64,000 nt of DNA from Patiria pectinifera (lineage: Eukaryota; Echinodermata; Asteroidea; Valvatida; Asterinidae). The notes below the pieces were generated by a model. That model was not told the origin of the DNA, made no database searches, and saw only the letters and a program-made list of their open reading frames with translations. Every line of letters begins with the position of its first letter. The stretch's first letter is position 1. The DNA lies in the NCBI GenBank assembly GCA_029964075.1, contig CM057136.1, positions 13,752,381 through 13,816,380 on the forward strand, in the 5' to 3' direction. This document shows, piece by piece, positions 10,769-30,968 of this stretch. Position numbers and translations under genes: made by a program.

Positions 10769-12705
10769 TTAACACTGTGCAGTCTGTCTCTTGGTATTGA
10801 TCCAATCCAGGAACTGATTGACCCTAGTGTAGACCCCGGGAGCGTTGGGCTGGGCGCAGCCGGACCCCCACGAGGTCACGCCGATGATCTGCCACGATCC
10901 CTGGTACTCGCAGACCAACGGTCCCCCGCTGTCTCCATCGCAGGAATCGATGCCGCCGCCCAAGTAGCCGGCGCACAGCATGCGGCTGGTCAGTTTGGAT
11001 CCGTAGACGCGTCGGCCGGTGCAGGTGGTTCGGGGGAGGAGGGGTACCCGGGCTTCTTGTAGGAGGCGGGGATAGTCATTCCCTGGTTGAAAAAAAGAAA
11101 AAGGAAGATTTGTTACAAAGAAATTGGCACTGCAATTGACTGCACAAGTTCCCTCTCAACCCTCAGCAGTTACAAAGGCAGAGTTGGGCGAGACCGCAGG
11201 AGGGACATTAGAATGCATTGCCAATGGCGCCTGACACTGACGCGAACGTGAAGATGCTACAAGTTGGCTACATTCAGAATACAATTAGTTGTGCCTATTT
11301 TGCACCATACACACGTGCTCTTGTATTTACATACAACCCGAGGACAGACACACGAAGAGAGAACAACAGATTATTTGTTGTCCTCGAACGTACATCTTTT
11401 GTTGAGAACAGTCCTGGCTCATTAGTGTATGTGCTTAGTCTATGGGAGAGTGTTATATTATAGGAACAAAGGGAAACACAATGCCTTGCCAATGGTAAAG
11501 TACGACTGTGCACACTAATTGTGGGATAACCAAAATGACCCAAGATTTCCTATAAACACTGGAATCACGTCCCTGAATTTACCTGTATTTCCCCAGCCAG
11601 AGATCCAGCACTGGTGATTATCGGGGAGATCTTCCCGGCCCGTCAAGCAGGCCGGCGAGACGTGGGTATTCATCTGGACTCCCCGGCCGTTCTTGGGCTT
11701 GAGTTTGATCAGGGCGATGTCATTATTGGTCGTGGAGCTGCTGTAGTCCTCGTGGAGGTGGAGACACTCAATGTCAAAGTCCTGCTCTGAATTCTCGGAG
11801 CGATACTGGTCGTGTTCTCCCAGACGGACCTTGAAACGGTCTTTTCCATATCTGCATGAGTGTCAGATGCCAATAAATATATGAGTTTGGCAATTTTTTC
11901 TAGCACATCTCTCCATGTGGACTCTGTCCATAAACCACACACTCAGTAGTCAAAATGCAATACATTACTGTTGAGAGAGGACAGTGTACACTGAGGACAT
12001 TATACTACTGAGGACTCTACTTGTTCCCTTCTTTTGTTCCAATTGTTTGGACTTAAACTTTATCTTGAAATGTCCCATAAGGTTTGTTCACGAAAACCTT
12101 CTGAGGACTGGGCTCATGACATGTCCCATATGGTTTGTATAGAAAAATCTTCTGAGGACTTTGGCTGAGAGAGGACAGTATACACTAAGGACACTATACT
12201 ACTGAGGAACCTTGTTGTTCCCTTCTTTTGATCCTATTTTTTGGGACTTAAACCTTATCCTGACATATCCCATAAGCTTTGTTTGGGAAAACCTTCTAAG
12301 GACTGGGCTCAGGTCCTCCAAGTTGTTTTTATCGCAGGCAACCTTTGTTCCAAGTCCTCAGAGGTAAACACAAAAACCATTGCAGCCTATTTGCATCAAC
12401 AACTGGTGAACAAACACGCAGAAAATTCTTTCACAATACAGCAGTCATGCTTTTTGTGGCCCTCACAAAACTGTCCTGTTTTCCAAATGTTCCATTAATG
12501 ACCACAACGCCTACGTACCTCTGAAAGCAGTGAGCGGCAGTCAGAACGTGGTACTCGTCAATGAGCGTCGCCCCACAGTAATGGCCGCTCTGTCTGAGTA
12601 GGAGCTGGGCTTGCCACGGCCAGCTACCCTTCTTGGCTGCCGTGCCACCGATGATGCGAGCGTTGATGCCGTTGTCGACTTGCTTAATACCGCAACTTCC
12701 CGGAG
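10769..12705 (-). CDS. Trypsin-like (S1) catalytic domain, three exons
   Basis: The exons are 12705..12519, 11851..11583 and 11082..10769. The activation site is [20 protein letters not shown]. The triad lies on separate exons: His in LTAAHCF, Asp in NNDIALIKL, Ser in [11 protein letters not shown]. Asp189 (DSC before the Ser loop) predicts cleavage after Lys or Arg. Residue 192, usually Gln in trypsins, is Asp here ([10 protein letters not shown]). [21 protein letters not shown] and LLPRTTC...SRMLCAGYL resemble neurotrypsin. The Cys in APGSCGIKQ ahead of the activation site probably tethers the catalytic chain to the propeptide chain. The protein ends [12 protein letters not shown]. Confidence 0.95.

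Positions 12706-30968: not shown

Follow-up and report, generated by a model that had tools for sequence, protein, structure and literature searches.

A probable sea star zymogen gene joining SRCR, kringle, PAN, LDLa and trypsin modules to an F-type lectin-fold module

On the minus strand of the window analyzed here, the whole stretch of 64,000 nucleotides from Patiria pectinifera, a chain of exons had been read in a first-pass annotation as a neurotrypsin-like protease with an expanded module set. The locus raises the question of whether these exons form one gene and, if so, to which proteases its product is related. From our reading of the sequence, we consider it probable that a single gene encodes a secreted, disulphide-rich zymogen made of SRCR, kringle, PAN, LDLa and trypsin modules, with an F-type lectin-fold module inserted between kringle 3 and LDLa 1.

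Gene model and module order

We joined the exons with a splice-chain script, which used 24 peptide cores as anchors and took its scores from the donor and acceptor sequences. On the minus strand of the window, from 30968 to 10769, 25 exons joined into 1506 codons plus a stop. Two donors were shifted by hand, that of exon 10 to 19694 and that of exon 22 to 13008, because a choice by splice score alone truncated kringle 3 and SRCR 3; the frame was unchanged. All 24 introns of the joined model are GT-AG, no internal stop interrupts the frame, and the protein has 1506 residues. The start ATG lies at 30968 and the stop codon ends at 10769, with an AATAAA 129 bases downstream of the stop. The span, the consistent AG/GT borders and the open frame given by the first-pass annotation were thus recovered, whereas its 26 exons and 1532 codons were replaced by 25 and 1506. 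The introns measure 145 to 3771 bases; 18 are in phase 1, five in phase 2 and one in phase 0.

We also observed an optional exon of 31 codons between SRCR 1 and kringle 1 (24789..24697, minus strand), the best scoring among the optional exons, which could be an alternative exon. Its addition would not yield the 1532 codons of the first-pass annotation.

The protein begins with a hydrophobic segment. The peak 19-residue hydrophobic window of the whole protein (1.92) lies at residue 4, and a hydropathy scan of the whole protein found no 19-residue window above 1.25 beyond residue 25; judged by hydropathy alone, the exon 1 segment is signal-like. The N terminus is the least certain part of the model, because the acceptor of exon 2 is weak (Table 1).

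Table 1. Features of the gene model, from the N terminus to the C terminus of the encoded protein (window positions)
Feature	Position	Strand	Evidence
Exon 1: translation start and signal-like hydrophobic stretch, residues 1-18	30915..30968	-	ATG; donor score 10.2
Exon 2: acidic linker behind the signal-like stretch	26999..27143	-	Weakest acceptor of the model, score 0.7
SRCR 1, exons 3-4 (26329..26179, 25485..25271)	25271..26329	-	Pfam SRCR; 6 Cys
Kringle 1, exon 5	23851..24117	-	Pfam; PDB match and alignment; plasminogen lysine-site residues
Kringle 2, exon 6	22621..22896	-	Pfam; without acidic lysine-site residues
PAN 1, exon 7	21272..21541	-	Pfam
PAN 2, exon 8	20723..20968	-	Pfam
Kringle 3, exons 9-10 (20199..20059, 19870..19694)	19694..20199	-	Pfam; alignment
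F-type lectin, exons 11-13 (19516..19385, 18902..18816, 18670..18422)	18422..19516	-	Pfam PF22633; PDB 3cqo, 1k12
LDLa 1, exons 14-15 (18251..18197, 17712..17636)	17636..18251	-	Pfam
PAN 3, exon 16	16991..17245	-	Pfam
LDLa 2, exon 17	16301..16444	-	Pfam
SRCR 2, exons 18-19 (15730..15556, 14817..14639)	14639..15730	-	Pfam
LDLa 3, exon 20	14155..14268	-	Pfam
SRCR 3, exons 21-22 (13713..13569, 13204..13008)	13008..13713	-	Pfam; many PDB SRCR chains
Activation linker and trypsin-like protease, exons 23-25 (12705..12519, 11851..11583, 11082..10769)	10769..12705	-	Pfam PF00089 2.5e-72

A Pfam search of the joined protein at E ≤ 0.01 returned six families, all above their cut-offs: SRCR (1.1e-83, three stretches), trypsin (2.5e-72), kringle (2.6e-56, three), PAN_1 (1.1e-33, three), Ldl_recept_a (7.8e-26, three) and F5_F8_type_C_2 (1.1e-14). 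As sequence matches these are far beyond chance. The search on the joined exons gave the same 14-module order as the first-pass annotation: SRCR, kringle, kringle, PAN, PAN, kringle, F-type lectin, LDLa, PAN, LDLa, SRCR, LDLa, SRCR, trypsin. Each SRCR, kringle and LDLa module holds six cysteines and each PAN module four. Identities between modules of the same type are 27-53%, and we therefore reasoned that they are not recent copies of one another.

The chain might instead fuse two or more genes, for example one that ends at kringle 3 and one that begins with the lectin, although we regard this as very improbable. Introns 1, 4 and 6 are longer than 1 kb, and a poly(A)-like hexamer occurs in 12 of the 24 introns, both of which speak for a fusion; the hexamers would also allow truncated forms. 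However, the introns that lead from kringle 3 to the lectin and from PAN 3 to LDLa 2 are only 177 and 546 bases long, and neither contains a poly(A)-like hexamer, nor does an in-frame Met precede the exon that follows. Over the whole model, 20 of the 24 introns lack such a Met and four have one. The module-start introns are in phase 1 in 14 of 14 cases, a dependent test given that the exon choice was partly guided by frame. Judged on these features, a single gene appears likelier than two.

Protease, kringles and the F-type lectin-fold module

The catalytic domain has the features of an S1A trypsin-like protease: an intact triad (H1309, D1357 and S1454), an equivalent of Asp189, and an activation site, INAR/IIGG, between R1267 and I1268. 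In the chymotrypsin numbering that we assume for these residues, Asp189 would correspond to a preference for Arg or Lys. By the same assumed numbering, an Asp takes the place of the usual Gln at position 192, adjoining the catalytic site (10769..11082, minus strand), and this may affect substrate choice. The first-pass view of a trypsin-type protease built of many modules is supported by Pfam, and its start is signal-like by hydropathy. Among the best 60 of 275 PDB matches at E ≤ 1e-40, the protease domain paired best with plasminogen (2e-55), factor XI and plasma kallikrein.

Plasminogen was also the best PDB match of kringle 1. At the alignment columns that we take to be the plasminogen lysine site, Asp, Asp, Trp, Tyr, Arg and Trp are conserved in kringle 1; kringle 3 keeps these residues except the Arg, beside a small insertion, and kringle 2 lacks the acidic pair. 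SRCR 3 matched many PDB SRCR chains, including neurotrypsin 6h8m at 7.5e-26.

The lectin domain matched PF22633 (1.1e-14) and solved members of the F-type lectin family. At E ≤ 0.1 it matched six PDB sequences, including 3cqo (E=4.7e-27) and 1k12 (E=5.1e-16); striped bass FBP32 and eel agglutinin are its closest relatives of solved structure. F-type lectins carry the fucose motif HX24RXDX4(R/K) and the cation motif hhDGx, as given in PMC5712786. In our alignment the cation motif is present as AVDGN at the corresponding place, but the fucose motif is broken, the His of SCTH being replaced by Leu. The Arg of NRXD/RXD is kept and the adjoining Cys pair is lost, a loss that the same text also records for one FBP32 domain (PMC5712786). 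The second Arg is also retained, but one residue early, a shift shared with the C-terminal domain of FBP32. The Leu codon lies entirely within exon 11, four bases before the exon end. For F-type lectin domains that deviate from the motif, that text allows either a different specificity or a loss of binding (PMC5712786). Because the motif His is Leu, classic fucose binding by this module is doubtful, as is the earlier suggestion that the protein docks through its lectin. The lectin-fold module probably recognises a ligand other than terminal fucose bound in the classic way, or else serves as a structural spacer.

A search of the genome with the lectin domain gave eight matches, three in this gene and five weaker ones elsewhere (up to 33 bits). 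The place of the His could be read at three of the five other loci: two on contig C9 have Gln, and one on contig C1 has His. The lectin-like gene on contig C1 (L021 1283..2750, plus strand) shares the exon break at the end of exon 11 and keeps the canonical His in frame, four bases from the exon end, the same distance as the Leu in exon 11. The canonical His is therefore present in the genome and, with Gln on C9, its loss is not confined to this gene. In the two lectin matches on contig C19 the aligned stretch shows Leu, but neither was counted, because in the one that was read this stretch lies upstream of a likely splice acceptor. We also noted, on contig C8 and others, at least 149 exon matches to F5_F8_type_C_2 in the genome (E ≤ 0.001; 150 scored out of 411 candidates), many of which share a contig with this gene; such domains form a large family here.

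Comparison with known mosaic proteases

The described layout of neurotrypsin (PRSS12) runs from a proline-rich start through one kringle and three to four SRCR domains to a predicted furin activation site and the protease (PMC9616769). Vertebrate neurotrypsin is a secreted kringle, SRCR and trypsin chain, as the sea star protein would be, but its layout in the part of that source at hand includes no PAN, LDLa or lectin module, all three of which are present in the sea star protein (PMC9616769). In the latter, we did not find the order of a kringle, then three to four SRCR domains, then the protease. The region behind the signal segment reads as acidic rather than proline-rich, and no furin-type site precedes IIGG, motifs ending in [KR]R occurring only at residues 25 and 723. 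Since the neurotrypsin order, the proline-rich start and the furin-type activation site are all absent, "neurotrypsin-like" is a loose term for this protein, and the earlier description of a neurotrypsin with an expanded set was not upheld.

Could the gene nonetheless be the true neurotrypsin orthologue of this animal, synaptic and cutting agrin-like proteoglycans? We think this unlikely. The protease domain scored 210 bits against human neurotrypsin and 184 against plasminogen, but the neurotrypsin query was an approximate sequence, and the apparent edge is a lead only. The gene is, in addition, the sole place where kringle and trypsin matches occur together, among the matches listed and by a comparison made by eye. 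Against orthology, the module order differs from the layout in PMC9616769 and the furin-type site is missing. SRCR 3 showed no preference for neurotrypsin (94 bits) over macrophage scavenger receptor (112 bits) or the best CD163 domain (98 bits). One domain-evolution study places the duplication that yielded neurotrypsin in early vertebrates and reports that SRCR similarity misleads neurotrypsin assignments (PMC3927612). Ten sea cucumber SRCR proteins have been placed in a neurotrypsin clade, with more work said to be needed on other echinoderms (PMC13228809).

By module set, amphioxus proteases and relatives of the insect proteins SP23 and Tequila are closer to this protein than neurotrypsin is. 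Plasminogen resembles it in its lysine-site kringles and its trypsin domain, and is the best PDB match for both kringle 1 and the protease. Plasminogen also contains a PAN module; to our knowledge it has no SRCR, LDLa or lectin module. Amphioxus proteases with SRCR, kringle, LDLRA, PAN and trypsin domains are listed together in Table 2 of PMC6337849, and are described there as reciprocal best hits of human members of the plasminogen-activator group. They have five module types, trypsin included, in common with the sea star protein, in which Pfam found all five on one chain. They differ in that Table 2 lists no F-type lectin and marks some of the trypsin domains as non-functional (PMC6337849).

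Honey bee SP23 is reported to resemble Anopheles SP22D and Drosophila Tequila, and consists of four chitin-binding domains, SRCR, C-type lectin, kringle, LDLa, PAN, two LDLa and the protease (PMC1761132). Like the sea star protein, it carries SRCR, kringle, LDLa, PAN, LDLa and protease on one chain, with a lectin beside a kringle, but it has a C-type lectin and, in addition, chitin-binding domains (PMC1761132). We found no chitin-binding domain in the sea star protein (Pfam, E ≤ 0.01). Six of seven modules fall in the same order in the two proteins, a value reached by 18,280 of 200,000 shuffles (9%) and thus not better than chance. Sea urchin SpCRL is likewise an echinoderm mosaic with an F-type lectin domain, but there the lectin is joined to complement-type modules, and no protease is listed in the portion of PMC5712786 consulted.

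The module set is thus mostly known already from amphioxus and insect proteases, and the F-type lectin is the new part. In the literature searched, mostly open-access, we found no chain that combines an F-type lectin with trypsin; the first-pass annotation had stated that, as far as known to it, this is no described neurotrypsin layout. The lectin-fold module would here be added to a kind of protease that, by the amphioxus data, stands close to the root of plasminogen activators.

Proposed function and genomic surroundings

We propose that the protein would be secreted and cleaved by a second protease after Arg1267, and that the new N terminus at Ile1268 would activate the enzyme. A disulphide link of the light chain is established for S1 proteases of this kind; here the usual bond would keep the light chain on the module chain, giving a two-chain enzyme. 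The modules may anchor this enzyme to a surface, where kringle 1 would be the likely lysine-binding dock, and the active protease would then cut after Arg or Lys near the surfaces bound by the modules.

Roles in clotting or wounds and in immunity seem likelier than a synaptic one. The enzyme may be an early protease of the plasminogen-activator or fibrinolysis type, with a role in body-fluid clotting or in wound matrix. This reading draws on the PDB matches of the protease domain to plasminogen, factor XI and plasma kallikrein, on the lysine-site residues and plasminogen match of kringle 1, and on the amphioxus five-module proteins, which branch at the root of the plasminogen-activator group (41% bootstrap; PMC6337849). 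However, the joined protein has no match to FN1 or EGF (Pfam, E ≤ 0.01), and the PDB ranking may be biased, as no neurotrypsin protease appeared among the best 60 of the 275 matches. An immune-recognition protease, whose lectin and SRCR modules would find microbes and bring the protease to them, can also be suggested tentatively. The partial texts consulted link F-type lectins (PMC5712786) and SRCR proteins (PMC10855680) to innate immunity, and report that Tequila, with its SP23-like architecture, is up-regulated in the fly on infection (PMC1761132). The Leu in place of the fucose-binding His argues against this role, as does the finding that the best candidates scored included no second gene of this kind, unlike expanded immune families.

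More speculatively, the gene may belong to an old animal protease line in which a core of SRCR, kringle, LDLa, PAN and trypsin was kept while each lineage exchanged the glycan-reading module: insects would have chitin-binding or C-type lectin modules in this role, and this animal an F-type lectin with its fucose site already altered. If this were true, the lectin module would set where the protease acts.

Searches of the genome with lectin, kringle and trypsin queries gave no second gene with the same layout among the best candidates scored. In a comparison by eye of all 16 kringle matches with those listed out of at least 153 trypsin matches, only this gene had the two near each other. As the sole such place among the matches listed, it is a good gene in which to study protease roles before the split into vertebrate clotting and synaptic functions. 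Its nearest protease relative in the genome is 58% identical over the last exon. We also searched ten stretches near trypsin genes or beside the window, and eight loci including this gene, with the protein's own modules as queries (E ≤ 0.001); outside the window only trypsin matches were found. Two trypsin genes lie about 23-31 kb past the low end of the window (L009 8719..9799 and L010 2..7475, both on the plus strand), and neither matched the non-trypsin modules of this gene at that threshold.

Within the window, open frames at 37062..38924 on the minus strand look like a possible mitochondrial COX18-type insertase; they gave no Pfam match at E ≤ 0.01. The C-terminal domain of a ZSWIM4-8 protein lies at 4197..5908 on the plus strand, converging with this gene.
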